IMG/VR virus record: IMGVR_UViG_3300009285_003081 | Location: 1 to 42,068 of that record | Length of the DNA stretch: 42,068 bases | Strand: one strand, 5' to 3' | From: a virus | Shown: positions 2,053 through 38,690 of the stretch, one piece after another | Numbering within the stretch: the first letter of the stretch is position 1 | Layout of the letters: each line of letters begins with the position of its first letter | The notes under the pieces: generated by a model | Told to the model about the DNA's origin: nothing | Seen by the model: only the letters and a program-made list of their open reading frames with translations | Databases searched by the model: none | Translations under genes and position numbers: made by a program

Positions 2053-2223
2053 ATGAATACGAGACCACGAATACAAATCGAATATTTCGGTATCAAACTG
2101 GAGACGGACTTAAAGCGTGCGGTTGAAGCCTCCGCCAAGCGTCAGAGGATTTTCGCCAGCGAGTGGATTCGCCGCGCGCTGGTGTCCAAGTTAGCGAGAG
2201 AAAAGGCGCGAGGGAAAACATGA
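2053..2223 (+). CDS. ribbon-helix-helix (Arc/CopG-like) DNA-binding protein
   Basis: A 56-residue protein: a short strand (PRIQIEYFGIKL), then helix ETDLKRAVEASAKRQR, a turn, and helix FASEWIRRALVSKLAREK. This is the size and layout of a ribbon-helix-helix dimeric DNA-binding protein. It is the first gene of the rightward early operon and sits beside the divergent promoters, so control of one or both is likely. The stop overlaps the next start (ATGA). An in-frame ATG at 2041 is an alternative start; neither has a clear ribosome site. Confidence 0.7.
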   Translation: MNTRPRIQIEYFGIKLETDLKRAVEASAKRQRIFASEWIRRALVSKLAREKARGKT

Positions 2224-3053
2224 AAGATTACCACGTGCTGAATCTGGGCGCAGGCGTGCAAAGTACCACGCTGGCGCTTCTCTTCGCTTACGACGAGCTG
2301 CGGCCGGCTCCCAATGTGGCGATATTCGCAGATACCCAAGAAGAACCGACCTACGTATACCCACATGTCGAGTGGCTTCAAAAGAAGTGTCCTTTCCCGA
2401 TCTGGATACGAACGGCCGGCAAGCTGGGCGATAATCTAGTTCGTGGCGTTAACTCGACGGGCCAGCGGTTTGTATCCATCCCCGCGTTCACAGCGGGCGC
2501 GGGCGGTAAGCGCGGCCAGGTGCGCAGGCAGTGCACATCTGAATACAAACTGAAACCGATAAATCGCGCTGTTCGGCGGGAACTGCTTGGTTTGGCTTAT
2601 CGTCAACGCATCCCGAAAGACATGCGAGTCCATCACTATATCGGGATTTCCATCGACGAGGCGGGCCGGGCGAACAAGATACGAGACAGAATGAAGCGCT
2701 ACGAGATCGCGCATTTTCCTTTGATTGAACGCGAATGGACGCGGGGTGATTGCGGAATGTGGCTCATGGATCGAGTTCCGTATGACGTTCGTCGGTCTGC
2801 TTGTGTCTTCTGCCCGTACAAAGACGACTCTGAATGGTTCTATCTGAAGACAGAGGACCCTGAGGGCTGGGCGCGCGCACTAGAGATTGACGAAGCGCTT
2901 CGCCGGCCGGGCAACGTCATCAATCGCGGCATGGATTCGCCGATGTACATTCATTCGTCTTTGGTTCCCTTGAGAGATGTTGCGCTAAATCCAACAGCGA
3001 AATACGAACAGAACCGTTTCAAATACGAATGCGTTGGGATGTGTGGAGTGTGA
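2220..3053 (+). CDS. PP-loop ATPase, phosphoadenosine phosphosulfate reductase-like
   Basis: A 277-residue protein opening with VLNLGAGVQSTTLAL, the pyrophosphate-binding PP-loop of the adenine nucleotide alpha-hydrolase superfamily, followed by IFADTQEEP. Further on are RRQCTSEYKLKPI (about 118-130), a GISIDEAGR segment, CVFCPYK and a C-terminal C-x3-C. PAPS reductases, DndC and tRNA thiolases share this fold; the Cys pairs suggest a metal or Fe-S site. Phages often carry this subfamily and its substrate is not known. Sulfur or nucleotide chemistry, perhaps nucleic-acid modification, is inferred only. The start at 2220 has GAGGGA upstream; the longer frame from 2163 overlaps the previous gene and is rejected. 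Confidence 0.8.
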   Translation: MKDYHVLNLGAGVQSTTLALLFAYDELRPAPNVAIFADTQEEPTYVYPHVEWLQKKCPFPIWIRTAGKLGDNLVRGVNSTGQRFVSIPAFTAGAGGKRGQVRRQCTSEYKLKPINRAVRRELLGLAYRQRIPKDMRVHHYIGISIDEAGRANKIRDRMKRYEIAHFPLIEREWTRGDCGMWLMDRVPYDVRRSACVFCPYKDDSEWFYLKTEDPEGWARALEIDEALRRPGNVINRGMDSPMYIHSSLVPLRDVALNPTAKYEQNRFKYECVGMCGV

Positions 3054-3329: not shown

Positions 3330-3357
3330 TTGAAACCCATCGCGATTGGTGTATGAT
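3330..3357 (+). promoter_or_regulatory. candidate promoter driving a structured leader
   Basis: TTGAAA (3330-3335), a 16-base spacer, and TATGAT (3352-3357) give a good sigma-70 match. Transcription would begin near 3364, which is the first base of the long inverted repeat described next. The promoter overlaps the ATG ATG at 3353-3358, which argues against translation from that point. Confidence 0.55.
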
Positions 3358-3362
3358 GCCAC

Positions 3363-3436
3363 GTGTGCTGGGGCTGATCGTCGGAAGTCATGAGCCGCGA
3401 GAAGCCTTCCGCTGTCGGGCGCGAGCCCCAGCACAC
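3363..3436 (+). ncRNA. structured 5' leader: 13-bp stem with inner hairpin
   Basis: GTGTGCTGGGGCT (3363-3375) pairs perfectly with AGCCCCAGCACAC (3424-3436), enclosing 48 bases. Inside, CGGAAG (3382-3387) pairs with CTTCCG (3406-3411). It begins where the predicted promoter would start transcription, so it is probably the 5' end of the replication-gene mRNA or a small RNA. I do not recognise a known riboswitch. Attenuation, RNA stability or a protein-binding site are possible roles. Confidence 0.5.
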
Positions 3437-3466
3437 ACACAAGACAGCGAGAATCGAGACAGCGCT

Positions 3467-3718
3467 TTGTCCGATCTCACACTCACTTGCTCAGAATTGG
3501 ACGCGTTGTGTCAGGCTACGATCGCCGAACTACAGAGCGACATTGAAGCCTACGACGAACGCGCCGCACTGCAAATCGTGGATCACGGCCGCACCACGGA
3601 CGCCTTGGCGCTACAGGCTCTCACGCAACCCGATACCCCATGGGGCGCGCATAATGTTGCCAAGATGTGGCTCTTCCGATCGCCAACAGCCAGGATTTGG
3701 GGCAGGACTGGCGAATGA
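3467..3718 (+). CDS. hypothetical small protein ahead of the replication ATPase
   Basis: The frame ending with TGA at 3716-3718 overlaps the ATG of the ATPase gene, which supports it. From a TTG start at 3467 it gives 83 residues (LSDLTLTCSELDALCQATIA, then helical acidic sequence and APHGAH-like end GAHNVAKMWLFR). Upstream starts in frame (ATG 3353, GTG 3365) would place coding sequence through the hairpin and yield an Arg-rich, unlikely N-terminus. No domain is recognised. The start is uncertain. A competing frame, 3390-3734, reads as out-of-frame sequence. Confidence 0.45.
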   Translation: MSDLTLTCSELDALCQATIAELQSDIEAYDERAALQIVDHGRTTDALALQALTQPDTPWGAHNVAKMWLFRSPTARIWGRTGE

Positions 3719-4884
3719 GTGGCTGGACACTTGAGGTTCCGGCATATGGCTTAGTATTCGAGGCCGACCGCTTGCGCCGCGAGCGTCACGAACTGACGGG
3801 CGAATTAACGGTACGCTGTTCCTTGCCGGGAGCGCGGACCATCAACGGGATTATCTCCACAGCCGACTTCAACTTTTCCAGCCTTCGCGCGCGTCAAGAT
3901 CGTGCGAAACACCTTGCCGAGCGAGCGCGCACAAAGGCCGAAATTGACTGGTACGCCTACCTCGAAGAATTCTGCCAGGGCGTATTTTCGCGTGAGCGGG
4001 AAGGCTCGCCCAGTGTGGATCTGCGGACAATCGAAAAGCCATCACGCGAGGAACTACTGCTCGACGGCATGCCCGTACCCGCGCGGCATCCAACAATCAT
4101 GTTTGGCGACGGCGGCGCGGGTAAGAGCCTGCTGGCTCTCTGGTGGGCCGGGCGATTGGTTCAGCGCAATATGATGCGCGTCGGATTTTTCGATTGGGAA
4201 CTTTCTGGCGAAGATCACCGGGAGCGGTTAGAGCAATTATTTGGCGCCGATATGCCGCGGATTGAATACTGCCGATGTGAATTACCACTACACCAAGAGA
4301 CCGACCGGGTCGCGCGTGTGATCCGGGACGCGAAACTGGATTACGCCATCTTCGACAGCGTTGCGATTGCCTGCGATGGGCCGCCAGAATCCGCCGAGAT
4401 CGCTGCGAAGTACTTCCGGGCGCTGCGGCCGCTGACCGTCGGAAGTCTCCATATCGCGCACGTCAATAAATCTGAGACGGCCGACCGGAGACCTTTCGGG
4501 AGCGCGTTCTGGCACAACCTAGCCCGCTCAACCTGGTTTATTGAAGCCGAGGACCGCGATGGCGACGAGAAACAGCTTCGCGTGGCGTTGCATAACCGCA
4601 AGGCCAACCTTGGGGGGTTGTCGCGCTCCGTCTCTTACCTGATTCGCTTCGATGATGGCGTGTCGATATCGCGGGCCGACATTGCCGAGAGCGGGCAATT
4701 AGCGGAGCGATTGTCCGTCCGTCAGCGGATGGTTTTTGCGCTAAAGCGGGGCTCATTGACGGCGGATTCGCTTGCCGAAGAGACGGGTGCCGACATCGAA
4801 ACGATCAAGCGAACAGCGCGCCGAAACAAGCGTGATTTTGTACTACTAAACGGAGGGAAAATTGGCCTTCTGGAAGCCATCTAG
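3715..4884 (+). CDS. RepA/AAA_25-like replication ATPase with C-terminal winged helix
   Basis: A 389-residue protein. Residues 131-138 are GDGGAGKS (Walker A), about 209-214 DYAIFDS (Walker B), followed by LHIAHVNK (about 245-252) and a FGSAFWHNLARS stretch, as in RecA-fold hexameric ATPases of the RepA/AAA_25 group used as replicative helicases or loaders. The last 55 residues look like a winged helix (QRMVFALKRGSLTADSLAEE). The start at 3715 overlaps the previous stop and has AGGA upstream; the frame extending to 3667 is less likely. Directly downstream lies a dense repeat cluster, the expected place for an origin bound by such a protein. No primase or polymerase is seen, so host enzymes are probably recruited. 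Confidence 0.8.
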   Translation: MSGWTLEVPAYGLVFEADRLRRERHELTGELTVRCSLPGARTINGIISTADFNFSSLRARQDRAKHLAERARTKAEIDWYAYLEEFCQGVFSREREGSPSVDLRTIEKPSREELLLDGMPVPARHPTIMFGDGGAGKSLLALWWAGRLVQRNMMRVGFFDWELSGEDHRERLEQLFGADMPRIEYCRCELPLHQETDRVARVIRDAKLDYAIFDSVAIACDGPPESAEIAAKYFRALRPLTVGSLHIAHVNKSETADRRPFGSAFWHNLARSTWFIEAEDRDGDEKQLRVALHNRKANLGGLSRSVSYLIRFDDGVSISRADIAESGQLAERLSVRQRMVFALKRGSLTADSLAEETGADIETIKRTARRNKRDFVLLNGGKIGLLEAI

Positions 4885-4959
4885 GGCGGACACTTTGTCC
4901 GGCTGTAAGTCTTTTATCTACAGCATATTCCACTTTATGCCACAAAGTGTCCGCCCTAG
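4881..4959. repeat. 18-bp perfect inverted repeat after the ATPase gene
   Basis: CTAGGGCGGACACTTTGT (4881-4898) is the exact reverse complement of ACAAAGTGTCCGCCCTAG (4942-4959), with 43 bases between. The first arm includes the TAG stop of the ATPase gene. It may be a transcript-end hairpin, but each arm also contains the TGTCCG core of the surrounding cluster, so it is more likely part of an origin or operator. Confidence 0.85.
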
Positions 4960-5167
4960 TGTCCGGGGCGGACAGTCACATTCAAGAGTGTCCGCCAATA
5001 TTTTGACACTAGGACTAACCGATGAATTATGAGTATGATACAAGCCGGACAAAGTGTCCGCCGGACATCCGGACAGTGCAATTTAGCAGGATAGGGCGGA
5101 CACTTCCGTCCCCCCTCTTTAGAGGGGGACGGTGTCCGTCCATCTGTCCGGAGAGAGAAAAGTGTCC
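4885..5167. repeat. iteron-like cluster: 14 copies of TGTCCG/CGGACA, candidate origin
   Basis: In about 280 bases without a gene, the hexamer TGTCCG occurs 14 times on one strand or the other, at about 4887, 4896, 4948, 4960, 4969, 4989, 5046, 5055, 5062, 5070, 5097, 5133, 5145 and 5163. Chance expectation is well under one. The fuller form is AGTGTCCGCC. The region follows a RepA-like ATPase gene, the classic place for iterons. AT-rich stretches lie near 4910-4940 and 4997-5040. An operator array for a regulator is the alternative. Confidence 0.7.
5106..5132 (+). terminator. strong hairpin inside the iteron-like cluster
   Basis: CCGTCCCCC pairs with GGGGGACGG, and TCT with AGA inside, with one bulged C and a TTTA-sized loop. 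There is no T-run after it, so it is a weak terminator candidate at best. It may be a cruciform in the origin or protect the mRNA of the next gene. Confidence 0.4.
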
Positions 5168-5227: not shown

Positions 5228-5686
5228 ATGAAGGAATCACAAATAATTCCACTAAAATTAAGCGAGGCAAACGCCCTGGTAAAGCAATGGCATCGGCATC
5301 ACAAACCAGTCATTGGGCATAAATTTGCGATTGGCTTAGTGTTAGCGATTGCGCCGACGCGCATTATCGGTGTGGCAATCGTCGGCCGGCCGGTGGCGAG
5401 GATGCTCGATGACGGACTGACGCTGGAGGTCAACCGCGTGGCGGTTCCCGATGGGCAGAAGAACGCCTGTAGCCAGCTATATGGGGCTTGCCGAAAGGCC
5501 GCATTCGCGCTTGGCTACAAGCGTCTCGTGACTTACACCCTACCATCGGAAAGCGGTGCGAGTCTTCGAGCTGCGGGCTATCGGCTAATCGGCGAGGCTG
5601 GCGGAGGTACATGGGATCGCCAATCCCGTCCGCGCGTCGACAATGCGCCCACGCAAAGTAAGCTGCGATGGGAGGTAGTTGCATGA
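5228..5686 (+). CDS. XF1762-family phage protein (GNAT-like)
   Basis: A 152-residue protein with the XF1762 signature: SEANALVKQWHRHHKPVIGH, then GVAIVGRPVARMLDDGLTLE, NRVAV, NACSQLYGA and LGYKRLVTYTLPSESGASLR. The family is found mostly in phages and resembles GNAT acyltransferases; its substrate is not known. The ATG at 5228 is preceded by AGGGG; extension to 5132 would run into the repeat cluster. The stop overlaps the ATG at 5683. It is the first gene after the candidate origin. Confidence 0.82.
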   Translation: MKESQIIPLKLSEANALVKQWHRHHKPVIGHKFAIGLVLAIAPTRIIGVAIVGRPVARMLDDGLTLEVNRVAVPDGQKNACSQLYGACRKAAFALGYKRLVTYTLPSESGASLRAAGYRLIGEAGGGTWDRQSRPRVDNAPTQSKLRWEVVA

Positions 5687-5888: not shown

Positions 5889-6193
5889 GTAAGTACAAGT
5901 CGGTGCGCACCAGCGTCGACAACATTTGTTTCGCCTCGAAAAAAGAGGCGGCCCGTTTCGTCGAGCTGAAGATGTTGCTACGCTCAGGCATCATCAGCGA
6001 CCTGAAGCTCCAGCAGCCGTTCGCCTTGAACGTGAATGGCGTTAAGGTGTGCAAGTACGTCGCGGACTTTGCGTATAAGGATCAGGCTGGACGCGACGTC
6101 GTGGAGGACACGAAAGGGGTGCGTACCGCAGTGTACAAACTCAAGTCAAAACTCATGATTGCCTGTCACGGCATTCGCATTGTGGAAACCTAG
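5885..6193 (+). CDS. DUF1064 protein, predicted nuclease-like
   Basis: A 102-residue protein with the DUF1064 layout: KYKSVRTSVDNICFASKKEA, ARFVELKMLLRSGIISDLKL, QQPFAL, YVADFAY and VVEDTKGVRTAVYKLKSKL. The D-F plus V-E-D-x-K arrangement is that of a PD-(D/E)XK nuclease fold, and such proteins are often suggested to act as phage resolvases. GTG at 5885 is chosen because it begins the conserved region, overlaps the previous stop and has AAGGA upstream. It ends the rightward early operon and faces the leftward cluster four bases away, with no terminator in between. Confidence 0.82.
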   Translation: MSKYKSVRTSVDNICFASKKEAARFVELKMLLRSGIISDLKLQQPFALNVNGVKVCKYVADFAYKDQAGRDVVEDTKGVRTAVYKLKSKLMIACHGIRIVET

Positions 6194-6197
6194 CCGA

Positions 6198-6512
6198 TTA
6201 AAACGGCGGCTCTGGCGTCCAGCCGTCATGGGTCCGGGCCTTACGCTGGACCCACTCCAGAGCAGGCGCATATCCAGCTCTGGCAAACTTCTGGATCACG
6301 GATTCGGCGGCTTCAAGGTCGGCTCTGAGTCTAGCAATCTCAGCAAAAGTGGAAATCGTGTTCAGAACAGCATTGCATTCCGCCAAGTCCAGCTCCAACT
6401 CCTCGATCCGCTTCAGGCAGTCACGCAGAAGAACACGCGATTTGGTATGAGTCGGCCATGCTGCGTAGCGTTGCAGGTAGTCCGCGATCCGTGCTTTCAG
6501 GTCGTCGCTCAT
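6198..6512 (-). CDS. hypothetical helical protein
   Basis: 104 residues, largely helical with a heptad-like centre (CLKRIEELELDLAECNAVLN, then EIARLRADLEAAESVIQKFA), so a coiled coil is likely. No family is recognised. AAGGAG stands before the start. It is the last gene of the leftward small-gene cluster and ends four bases from the convergent DUF1064 gene. Confidence 0.7.
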   Translation of the reverse strand: MSDDLKARIADYLQRYAAWPTHTKSRVLLRDCLKRIEELELDLAECNAVLNTISTFAEIARLRADLEAAESVIQKFARAGYAPALEWVQRKARTHDGWTPEPPF

Positions 6513-6555
6513 CGCGTCTCCTTGGCCTTTCGTTCAAAACCCGGCACGTTCGGCG

Positions 6556-6777
6556 TCATCGCGGCTCGAACTCCGAACAAATACATACAGAGCAATCGGT
6601 CCTGCGAGGATTCCCTGTACCTTGCGGCTCGCTTCTGTGACGACGCCGACTATGACTACAGGTGCATAGGTCCATCACGAAGTCACGATAAACCTGTACA
6701 AGCTCTAACAGTTCCGCCTTCATCGGCAATGATTCGCGGCCAACTTCAAGTTCGGCTAAGCGGTCTTTTGTAATCAT
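6556..6777 (-). CDS. small Cys/His-rich protein, probable zinc binder
   Basis: 73 residues: a helical first half (LAELEVGRESLPMKAELLEL), then CTCSHSRRRH and CSVCIC followed by EFEPR. The pattern of a CxCxH unit, a second His, and a later CxxCxC-F resembles a family of small phage proteins with a metal site. A related pattern appears in the gene at 7025-7225. The start overlaps a micro-ORF stop. Function unknown. Confidence 0.7.
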   Translation of the reverse strand: MITKDRLAELEVGRESLPMKAELLELVQVYRDFVMDLCTCSHSRRRHRSEPQGTGNPRRTDCSVCICSEFEPR

Positions 6778-6839
6778 CGTTGTCTGTCGAGCGATTCGCC
6801 CGCCTCCTTATCTATCTCGGCCTGTGACTGGCCGCTCAT
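6774..6839 (-). CDS. 21-residue micro-ORF with strong ribosome site
   Basis: ATG at 6839 is preceded by AAGGAGAAGCG, the same ribosome-site cassette used by neighbouring genes. It encodes MSGQSQAEIDKEAGESLDRQ plus one Arg and ends in a TGA that overlaps the next ATG. The tight spacing suggests it is translated, perhaps only for coupling. It may be the remnant of a longer gene. Confidence 0.5.
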   Translation of the reverse strand: MSGQSQAEIDKEAGESLDRQR

Positions 6840-6854
6840 CGCTTCTCCTTGCCC

Positions 6855-7028
6855 TTACATCGGCTCATCTGTGACCTCGCCAGTGTGCTTGTCATAATTA
6901 AAAGGCCGTCCATCTCGTAGATCAAGGCCGTGACCGAGCGCATACTTGATAATCCGAGGCTTCATTAATGATTTCTCGATCAGGCAGTCAATAACCTCTT
7001 GTTCGTCGTCGTCGAGAGTAATTGTCAT
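6855..7028 (-). CDS. hypothetical 57-residue acidic protein
   Basis: MTITLDDDEQEVIDCLIEKS, then a helical stretch and a tail with DGRPFNYDKHTGEV. ATG 7028 has AAGGAG eight bases upstream; the longer frame to 7157 overlaps the preceding gene and is not used. No family recognised. Confidence 0.7.
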   Translation of the reverse strand: MTITLDDDEQEVIDCLIEKSLMKPRIIKYALGHGLDLRDGRPFNYDKHTGEVTDEPM

Positions 7029-7575: not shown

Positions 7576-7933
7576 TTTTACTTGTCCTCCCACGTGCCGT
7601 CATCACAATTGCCCGAGCTCGCGCCTCGGATGGTGTGCGGCCGTCACAACTCGTAATTCTGTCCGCTATGCCGCCGACCATGCGGAAGAACGCACAGTTG
7701 TAGATGCCATCAGTGAATGACGACACGGTGAACTCGTAGCCGCGTTGCTTACAGAATCCATCAGTCAGCGGCTCGCTCACGGCAGGATCAGACTCGACGG
7801 CTGGGAGATCCATTTCCCGACAGTCACATTTCAGGCCGCCATTAACTCGCGTGCAGAAGCGCGAGTGCTTAATCGACATCGCCTCGCACACCGCTTTTCG
7901 CAGTTCCAGGCCGGTTAATCCACTAGTTGGCAT
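7562..7933 (-). CDS. ABA-sandwich-like phage protein, copy 1
   Basis: 123 residues. It begins GLTGLELRKAVCEAM, then LPAVESDPAVSEPL, FCKQRGYEFTV and ends TPSEARARAIVMTA. This order is that of the phage ABA sandwich domain family (function unknown). Paralogues lie at 7999-8388 and 38361-38690. About 216 bases of its 3' half are nearly identical to 38375-38590, showing a recent duplication or gene conversion. GGAGGAG precedes the ATG. Confidence 0.78.
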   Translation of the reverse strand: MPTSGLTGLELRKAVCEAMSIKHSRFCTRVNGGLKCDCREMDLPAVESDPAVSEPLTDGFCKQRGYEFTVSSFTDGIYNCAFFRMVGGIADRITSCDGRTPSEARARAIVMTARGRTSKNVSQ

Positions 7934-8006
7934 TAGCTCCTCCCCGTATCTGGTGGTATGCCGCGAGCACCTTCCGGCGCGCCTCGGCGGGCGTGCGGCT
8001 ACTCAT
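7923..8006 (-). pseudogene. 27-residue remnant of a duplicated gene
   Basis: From ATG 8006 the frame reads MSSRTPAEARRKVLAAYHQI then RGGANAN. This matches the last 25 or so residues of the 86-residue gene at 8378-8638 (GGTPAEARLKVLAAYDQI then RGGANAR). In both places the stop overlaps the start of an ABA-like gene by about ten bases. The remnant and the gene at 7562 are therefore a second copy of the two-gene unit 8638-7999, with the first gene cut down. Confidence 0.7.
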
Positions 8007-8388
8007 CGTCTTGCTCCATTTTCACGATTGCCCGGGCGCGTGCCTCGGATGGGGTTGAGCCTTGCACACTCACAGCGAGTATCCCTATTCGGGAAGGCAG
8101 CGCTTTGAGGTGCACGACATATCTTGTCGCCGTGGCTTCGAGCCGCCAACTGAAACCTACTTCAGCGCACCGAGCGTTAAACAGGGGTTCGCTGACAGCG
8201 GGATCGGAATCGACGGCCGGCAAGCCGGAACAAGCGTCCGTCAATGAGGTGAATCCGCAGACTAAATTGCCGTTCAGTTCTGTGCGCAACCAAAGGTTTG
8301 TGCCGCGCGGGTCGCGCCGAATCGAGTATCCCAACGCCTCACACGCTGCTCTTCGCAGCGCCAGGCCGGTTAATCCACTATCTTGCAT
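7999..8388 (-). CDS. ABA-sandwich-like phage protein, copy 2
   Basis: 129 residues with GLTGLALRRAACEALGYSIR, LPAVDSDPAVSEPLF, CAEVGFSWRLEAT and TPSEARARAIVKMEQ, the same plan as the copies at 7562 and 38361. The middle is diverged from the others, so it is the older paralogue. Function unknown. Confidence 0.78.
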   Translation of the reverse strand: MQDSGLTGLALRRAACEALGYSIRRDPRGTNLWLRTELNGNLVCGFTSLTDACSGLPAVDSDPAVSEPLFNARCAEVGFSWRLEATATRYVVHLKALPSRIGILAVSVQGSTPSEARARAIVKMEQDDE

Positions 8389-8638
8389 TAGCCCCTCCCC
8401 GTATCTGGTCGTAGGCCGCGAGCACCTTCAAGCGCGCCTCGGCTGGCGTGCCGCCTTCAATTATGATGTCCACCTCTTCCGTCTCTGTCGAGCCTCGGAC
8501 CCAGAGCGATATCGACTCATGCGGGTCCTGGATCATGGACCATGTACAGTTCCGCTCTGCGCACCACGCGACGAAAGCGTCTTCGGTGTTCTCTTTCACG
8601 ATTTGCCTTCCTAGTCCAAGCTTTTCGAAGCGTGTCAT
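8378..8638 (-). CDS. hypothetical protein, distant ABA-like C-terminus
   Basis: 86 residues with FVAWCAERNCTWSM and a final GGTPAEARLKVLAAYDQI, echoing the C-terminal motif of the ABA-sandwich-like genes. The start overlaps the preceding stop (ATGA) and has AGGTGAGGA upstream. A shortened copy is at 7923-8006. Function unknown. Confidence 0.72.
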   Translation of the reverse strand: MTRFEKLGLGRQIVKENTEDAFVAWCAERNCTWSMIQDPHESISLWVRGSTETEEVDIIIEGGTPAEARLKVLAAYDQIRGGANAR

Positions 8639-38364: not shown

Positions 38365-38690
38365 GCAGGAAACTTTGTCCTCCCACGTGCCGTCATCACG
38401 ATTGCCCGAGCACGCGCCTCAGACGGCGTTGAGCCGTCACAACTCGTAATTCTGTCCGCTATGCCGCCGACCATACGGAAGAACGCACAGTTGTAGATGC
38501 CATCAGTGAATGACGACACGGTGAACTCGTAGCCGCGTCGCTTACAGAATTCATCGGTCATCGGCTCACTCACGGCGGGATCGGATTCGATGTGAGGAGC
38601 ACTGGTACCAAACACATCGTCTCCAACTTGATAGCCCAACGCCTCGCACGCTGCTCTTCGCAGTTCCAGGCCGGTTAATTCACCTTGCAT
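38361..38690 (-). CDS. ABA-sandwich-like phage protein, copy 3 (mosaic)
   Basis: 109 residues from ATG 38690, chosen by alignment with the copies at 7562 and 7999; ATG 38702 is possible. The start (LTGLELRRAACEALGYQ) is like the 7999 copy, while the rest (CKRRGYEFTVSSFTDGIYNC and onward) is nearly the same as the 7562 copy. So the gene is a mosaic, and 31 kb or, round the circle, about 11 kb separate it from its relatives. Confidence 0.76.
   Translation of the reverse strand: MQGELTGLELRRAACEALGYQVGDDVFGTSAPHIESDPAVSEPMTDEFCKRRGYEFTVSSFTDGIYNCAFFRMVGGIADRITSCDGSTPSEARARAIVMTARGRTKFPA

Follow-up and report, generated by a model that had tools for sequence, protein, structure and literature searches.

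A probable replication origin of hexamer repeats beside the gene of an SF4-type ATPase in phages and acidobacterial prophages

The origin repeats of satellite phage P4 are short and run in both directions; the P4 alpha protein is an SF3 helicase, and P4 possesses a second element, crr. Classical iterons are direct repeats of about 17–22 bp. As summarised in PMC4234260, alpha unites a helicase, a primase and a winged helix acting on the origin repeats in one protein. The IncQ plasmid RSF1010 employs RepC, RepA and RepB' together with the iterons of oriV and two hairpins, ssiA and ssiB, that are exposed for priming, and in the crenarchaeal plasmid pRN1 (ORF904) and phage BIP-1, a replication protein consisting of Prim-Pol, helicase and C-terminal winged helix is encoded directly upstream of a cis element with a stem-loop (PMC4234260). 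In iteron plasmids (RepA/RepE/TrfA) and in PLE RepA_N systems, the initiator gene lies beside its own iterons and A/T-rich DNA, and the motif is specific to the initiator (PMC4980987; PMC7145576). GP46 of lactococcal phage F13 is a RecA-fold helicase close to RepA/AAA_25 with catalytic Lys, Glu, Asp and His residues, and according to the same 2022 study no function has been described for AAA_25-type proteins (PMC8965321).

Here we analyse a viral record of 42,068 bases (hereafter, the window) from a soil-type phage with a P22-like layout (its terminase matches those of P22-group phages at 30–35%), in which an array of TGTCCG hexamers follows the gene of a RecA-fold ATPase. The array is very probably the replication origin of the phage and, at the same time, the binding array of the preceding ATPase, which would act as helicase and initiator in one. 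As far as it is summarised in the cited source, P4 alpha comes closest in logic, since a single polypeptide contacts the repeats through a winged helix, unwinds and primes; however, it combines an SF3 motor with a Toprim-type primase, whereas the window ATPase has a RecA-fold, SF4-like motor and no fused primase, and crr has no counterpart in the window, where a single TGTCCG cluster is found in the 42 kb of a record that may be incomplete. RSF1010 RepA, compared by description, is closest in motor type (SF4), and an iteron origin with origin hairpins is common to both systems. RSF1010, however, uses three proteins, with RepC on the repeats, whereas the putative iteron binder here is the C-terminus of the ATPase; moreover, the iterons are of 6–8 bp in both orientations, a single hairpin is present instead of two, and the window genes scanned yielded no RepB'-like primase. 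The pRN1 and BIP-1 systems are closest in position and in having a stem-loop, and Prim-Pol domains also occur in relatives of the window ATPase, but these systems have SF3 motors and a single large stem-loop, with no iterons and no binding motif identified, in contrast to the clear cognate hexamer array and only small hairpin found here. With iteron plasmids the locus shares an initiator gene that adjoins its repeats and A/T-rich DNA; their initiators, however, are not helicases but recruit one, and their iterons are longer, in-phase direct repeats, whereas the hexamers here lie in both orientations at spacings of 7–57 bp. F13 GP46 has the same catalytic set as the window ATPase, and neither an iteron array nor a winged helix is mentioned in PMC8965321. 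With a non-SF3 motor, no separate RepC and an array of iterons, the locus falls outside the definitions of the P4, RSF1010 and pRN1 systems and is read here as an SF4-type initiator-helicase with a cognate hexamer array.

The array and the ATPase gene in the window

A preliminary description of this DNA had reported fourteen hexamers in both directions within about 280 gene-free bases, and a recount returned exactly 14 copies of TGTCCG/CGGACA (8 forward, 6 reverse) in the 282 bp between 4887 and 5168; these counts, and a position conserved in homologues, are the basis for reading them as iteron-type sites of a putative origin. The sites start at 4887−, 4896+, 4948+, 4960+, 4969−, 4989+, 5046−, 5055+, 5062−, 5070−, 5097−, 5133+, 5145+ and 5163+, that is, in the order − + + + − + − + − − − + + + on the plus strand, with irregular start-to-start spacings of 9, 52, 12, 9, 20, 57, 9, 7, 8, 27, 36, 12 and 18 bp. 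Two 15-bp near-palindromes, CGGACA-NNN-TGTCCG (4887–4901 and 5046–5060), are mutual reverse complements. The extended unit proposed previously, (A)AGTGTCCGCC, describes the commonest copies fairly, whereas the consensus across all 14 sites is.ca.agTGTCCGgc. The whole window contains 55 copies of the hexamer, compared with 26.3 ± 4.9 expected from shuffles; the 41 copies outside the array are scattered, and the hexamer is nowhere else equally dense (~1 per kb elsewhere versus ~50 per kb in the array). When all hexamers were counted in 300-bp windows, the array was the sole dense non-coding cluster (14 copies; the next had 6), and only one place was denser, an alanine-codon repeat at ~1440–1600. 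The gene at this place (1356–1970, −) contains a long alanine-rich repeat with a 9–12 bp period (GCAGCAGCAT..., 14 overlapping copies). Diverged direct repeats occur elsewhere in the window, at 7582–7797 and 38375–38590 (92% over 216 nt) and at 7877–7999 and 8332–8454 (86% over 123 nt; also 38637–38683); they lie in two clusters of small genes separated by 30 kb, which may reflect duplication of small early genes.

The array lies directly behind the ATPase gene (3715..4884, +), the probable start of which, ATG 3715, overlaps as ATGA the stop of a small upstream ORF (3353..3718, +) with no Pfam or PHROG match and no recognised primase domain. The longest ORF begins at GTG 3667, from which residues are numbered here. 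An N-terminal beta domain (16–112) is followed by the P-loop GDGGAGKS with K153 and by E178, D230, H265 and R287. The Walker A Lys (K153), motif 1a Glu (E178), Walker B Asp (D230) and motif 3 His (H265) correspond to the SF4 set of PMC8965321, R287 is a candidate Arg finger, and all five residues are identical in 28 of 28 homologues. In profile comparison, the P-loop domain matches AAA_25 (PF13481) with 24.5 bits (E = 2.4e-5), under the curated cut-off of 27; the match is above the cut-off in L207, L309, L311, L346, L354 and other homologues. The AlphaFold2 model (pLDDT 91.5) retrieved RadA, KaiC, DnaB and RecA from the PDB at about 1e-10 in Foldseek, pointing to a RecA-type fold of the SF4 RepA/DnaB type, and Prim_Pol/AAA proteins and replicative helicases in a structure search among viruses. 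AlphaFold2 secondary structure, together with the covariation described below, delineates a C-terminal winged helix (4693..4881, +; about residues 343–405), which weakly matches Z-alpha/winged-helix chains and has its predicted recognition helix at residues 377–386 (IETIKRTARR), with K381 and R382 as specificity positions. The modelled RecA fold and winged helix agree with the earlier view that the array directly follows a RepA/AAA_25-like ATPase with a winged helix of its own.

The first gene past the array (5228..5686, +) is of the Mom-like DNA-modification/acyltransferase type (phrog_1384, E = 2.9e-35) and is thought to lie outside the replicon. It probably starts at ATG 5228, not at GTG 5132, because the family match begins at residue 32; between the ATPase stop at 4884 and this start, the array stretch is free of genes. 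Together with a PAPS-reductase-like gene (2163–3053), the Mom-like gene may form a DNA-modification or anti-restriction set.

Inside the array, we found A/T-rich gaps and a hairpin that were absent from the preliminary description. The gaps, at 4902..4945 (36% GC, beginning with GCTGTAAGT, lowest 0.8% of 44-bp windows) and 4995..5045 (35% GC, lowest 0.4%), divide the first three site groups, rank within the 1% of phage sequence poorest in GC and represent candidate unwinding elements. The hairpin CCGTCCCCCCTCTTTAGAGGGGGACGG at about 5106–5132 (DNA fold z = −5.6 versus shuffles) has the stem CCGTCCCCCCTC-TTTA-GAGGGGGACGG between the inverted hexamers 5097–5102 and 5133–5138 (feature 5097..5138, +), with TTTA on the ATPase coding strand, near the downstream end of the array; it is a candidate priming or assembly structure. 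It is unlike an ordinary terminator because no T-run follows it, and an Rfam search with the hairpin produced only sub-threshold chance matches. Cumulative GC skew of the window gave no support for an origin and is uninformative in this case because the skew tracks gene orientation.

Relatives of the ATPase and the elements downstream of their genes

Since tblastn searches with the full-length ATPase against phages and plasmids, as well as a first viral scan, yielded no relatives, we turned to a motif-first DNA route. A scan for two GTGTCCGCC within 30 bp detected mostly unrelated repeats in GC-rich coding DNA and a single useful viral fragment (L064), which carries a TGTCCG array and the same C-terminal winged helix. 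A second scan, blind to protein, for three AGTGTCCG with short gaps in one genome per bacterial species matched locus L207 in a Solibacteraceae (Acidobacteriota) assembly, with a full-length ATPase homologue (462 bits, 54% identity) adjoining a 14-site TGTCCG array. L207 is a prophage with genes for an integrase, a CHC2 zinc-finger protein, the ATPase and, past the array and some short ORFs, an HK97-type capsid. The alignment of the two ATPases was then used to gather viral and acidobacterial homologues, giving some 60 relatives. Samples of Myxococcota, Pseudomonadota and Verrucomicrobiota produced weak RecA/KaiC-type matches only; therefore, outside viral records and among the genomes sampled, the family was seen only in Acidobacteriota. 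The available sequence of two terminase relatives (L122 and L123, 63%), both fragments, does not include the ATPase. A literature search found no paper on iteron origins in acidobacterial prophages. Separately, an O-like helix-turn-helix gene with TGTCCGCCCC repeats within its coding sequence was observed in L024 (2542–3177, −) and also in L008, L026, L037, L043, L076 and L106; this arrangement resembles the lambda origin inside O, and the genes perhaps encode an unrelated initiator with a similar word.

Arrays were assessed by comparing the commonest hexamer in the 500 bases past the ATPase stop with Markov shuffles of the same DNA. Most relatives that keep the ATPase also keep an array at the same place: the hexamer was significant at p ≤ 0.03 in 37 of the 56 homologues and at p ≤ 0.01 in 31, the median count being 8 copies. 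The 500 bases upstream of the gene passed p ≤ 0.03 in 1 of 48 cases (none at 0.01), and control DNA located 1.5 kb beyond did so in 0 of 42. No significant array lies directly downstream in roughly one third of the homologues; these are mainly distant relatives but include L313, L322 and L334, and L307 likewise belongs to those with weak or absent arrays. In L307, the ATPase gene is directly followed by an HNH-endonuclease-like ORF (6160–6900) that has a second helix similar to the recognition helix of the ATPase; this locus lacks the usual array, and a hairpin is preceded by recurrent GGTCG/CGACC words.

The hexamers across relatives comprise TGTCCG, TGTCCA, CGTCCG, TGTCGG, TGTCTG, TGTCAC, TGTAGC, TGCAGC, TGCAAC, TGTTAC and TGTCCC, and the hexamer switched at least 18 times on a tree of the ATPase core from which the winged helix was left out. 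This pattern bears on the possibility that the array is a sequence accident or a mobile repeat that expanded without function. Arrays can indeed grow by slippage or recombination, and one of them (L331) includes a duplicated piece of the gene end; however, the sequence between the sites shows no repetition, the hexamer shifts coherently over whole arrays and along with the protein, and the position is kept in dozens of divergent elements, so that we regard a functionless expansion as extremely improbable.

The other elements of the window array also recur. A/T-rich dips are commoner in the arrays of relatives than in control DNA (p = 3e-6), and stems of at least 5 bp with a TTTA loop on the ATPase coding strand were found in 21 of 57 downstream regions; the reverse orientation gave 0 of 57, the regions upstream gave 0 of 47, and among random segments the frequency was 0.7%. 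Between arrays, the hairpin sequence varies less than the hexamer, and in many of them it takes the form C-run/TTTA/G-run, with fixed orientation and adjoining A/T-rich gaps. In its strand specificity (one orientation only, 21 versus 0) the hairpin is of the RSF1010 type, and its fixed, non-palindromic TTTA loop suggests single-strand recognition, for instance in priming; the ssi hairpins of RSF1010 are described as acting in this way, and the same has been proposed for the stem-loop of pRN1 (PMC4234260). The TGTAAGT-type element of the first gap recurs in L207, L064, L311, L325 and L331; in these and in the window, GTAAGTGATTGA or a similar sequence appears as a second element near A/T-rich stretches. 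It is present, in either orientation, in roughly a third of 34 arrays and is thus not universal. DnaA boxes (TTWTNCACA), which belong to the origins of classical iteron plasmids, were found in 0 of 56 downstream regions of homologues, and the window array contains one single-mismatch site (4914), which is at chance level; a self-recruiting initiator would have no need for them.

Several homologues are fused to replication domains, namely Prim-Pol and PriCT_1 (L309, L335, L336, L346, L354, L356), Toprim (L310, L319, L355) or a DnaB-N domain (L318, L321, L331), and these primase and DnaB-N fusions support a replicative role of the predicted array-bound protein. One homologue (L314, 3723–5825, +) contains an intein (Intein_splicing, E = 6.5e-12); replication proteins are a common home of inteins. 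Given that the array module is found in the P22-like window and in L207 with its HK97-type capsid, it is shared by elements with unrelated virion genes, and moving among unrelated virion gene sets is how replication modules behave.

The alternative that the preliminary description had placed second is a multi-site operator, at which the ATPase or a phage regulator would bind the array solely to control transcription of its own or the next gene. Arrays are intergenic, short sites in both orientations do occur at operators, and some arrays of relatives are small, with 5–6 sites. However, the array follows the 3' end of the ATPase gene rather than occupying its promoter, and the gene that comes next varies, being Mom-like in the window, short ORFs before the capsid genes in L207 and an unrelated gene in L333. 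Furthermore, up to 16 sites with A/T-rich gaps and an oriented hairpin are more than an operator needs, and primase and DnaB-N domains occur as fusions to the predicted binder. A plain operator is therefore much less likely than an origin, and we consider it improbable.

A centromere for partition or a pac site for packaging, with the ATPase or a terminase as its binder, has in its favour that ParA/MinD-type P-loop proteins are among the weak profile matches and that short repeat arrays also act as centromeres. Yet the SF4 helicase motif set is complete, with K153, E178, D230 and H265 invariant, the fold is that of RadA, DnaB and KaiC, and the fusions are to primases; the ParA/partition reading was dropped in view of the helicase motifs and primase fusions. 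The array also follows the ATPase gene and not a terminase gene, and the module is present in elements with unrelated virion genes (the P22-like window and L207 with its HK97-type capsid); both functions appear even less probable than the operator. Operator, centromere and packaging site all fit less well than an origin, given a site 3' of the gene, a following gene that differs between elements and a predicted binder of the helicase-primase kind.

Covariation of the hexamer with the recognition helix

For comparison of recognition helices we used the scheme a-[ST]-[ILV]-d-e-f-g-h-[RK], in which d is K381 and e is R382 in the window; the assignment of motifs and of the helix register was manual. 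Of 31 homologues, 19 carry K or R at position e, and 18 of these 19 have a GTCC motif, compared with 1 of the 12 homologues with another residue (Fisher test, post hoc, 1.6e-6). Because this test had been picked after the data were seen, the rule was fixed in writing ahead of new relatives, among which it was correct in 7 of 7 scorable cases: L378, L417, L424, L427 and L429 have K/R and GTCC, and L379 and L428 have neither. Left unscored were L377 (no downstream DNA), L380 (different C-terminus) and L433 (no clear array), and L425 duplicates L424; L377–L379 had been listed before the rule was written, with their helices and arrays then unexamined. Residue 381 is linked to the last base of the motif, as Tyr at d goes with TGTCCA in 5 of 5 carriers (L321, L331, L344, L417, L427), two of them predicted beforehand. 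Thus, the class of residue 382 covaries with motif bases 4–5, and Tyr at residue 381 with A at base 6. The homologues are related to one another; when only phylogenetically independent pairs are counted, all agree with both relationships (residue e, 4:0 and 2 ties; residue d, 5:0), but the pairs are too few to reach 0.05. The hexamer tracks the recognition helix of the winged helix and, since the word shifts in step with the tail of the protein, each is largely predictable from the other. This covariation argues strongly that the winged helix binds the TGTCCG hexamer.

Two pairs of natural recombinants point in the same direction. Genome G204 harbours two elements, L318 (contig 78) and L331 (contig 34), with 88–99% DNA identity between the ATPase cores, ~70% in the winged-helix codons, background level in the array and at least 92% further on. 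L318 has Arg in the helix and TGTCCG in the array, whereas L331 has Tyr and TGTCCA. Within the L331 array there is also a degenerate second copy of the end of the ATPase gene, possibly a trace of exchange. Conversely, L335 and L336 share only 52–68% in the core, compared with 99% in the winged helix, and also have the array and downstream DNA in common. In both pairs, as judged from these alignments, winged helix and array move together, which would make them a single cassette of specificity, similar to the incompatibility determinants of plasmids. The reading put forward in the preliminary description, in which the array is an iteron-type origin and the ATPase encoded beside it is the protein that acts there, is accordingly strengthened by the agreement between motif and winged helix, by recombinants that keep both together and by the primase and DnaB-N fusions.

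Predicted mode of replication and its implications

As in iteron-type origins, the sites lie beside the initiator gene beyond chance and an A/T-rich region lies beside the repeats; specificity of the sites for the DNA-binding domain of the initiator is suggested by the covariation, the pre-stated predictions and the recombinants. From the array, its position, the family, the covariation, the linkage, the fusions and the invariant motor residues, all of which can be read directly in the sequences, we infer origin activity, ring loading and a role for the hairpin. In the mechanism that we propose, the C-terminal winged helix, around K381 and R382, would dock on TGTCCG sites at variable spacing and in both orientations, and docking of many subunits would raise the local concentration of the RecA-fold SF4 motor next to the A/T-rich gaps; on DNA opened there, a helicase ring may assemble. 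The C-run/TTTA/G-run hairpin, constant in orientation and located at the downstream end, could offer a structure in single-strand form that serves in priming or in assembly of the ring, and forks would follow ring formation and priming. The primase would be the fused Prim-Pol or Toprim in some relatives, others having DnaB-N; no primase was recognised among the window genes scanned and the ATPase has none fused, so that primer synthesis in the window phage would depend on the host, which presumably supplies the enzyme; this is a weak point of the replication reading for this phage. On top of its origin function, the array may serve in autoregulation.

The family probably represents a widespread, previously undescribed class of phage and prophage replicons in which an SF4 helicase is its own origin binder, two helix positions set the hexamer, winged helix and array are swapped as a compatibility cassette and the TTTA hairpin stays constant. 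AAA_25-type proteins are common in phages, and this family gives one of them a testable job together with a cis target. It would also add an SF4 motor to the few single chains that combine a helicase with origin recognition, so far P4 alpha and pRN1-like SF3 proteins. Because hexamers differ between co-resident elements, such elements would be able to replicate side by side from different origins in one genome; the natural specificity code, in which helix residues predict the origin word, is illustrated by two near-identical replicons with different words in a single genome. The module could be used for shuttle vectors for Acidobacteriota, of which, to our knowledge, few exist. The consequences for origin recognition, for the compatibility of co-resident prophages and for the prediction of origins from sequence are all testable.
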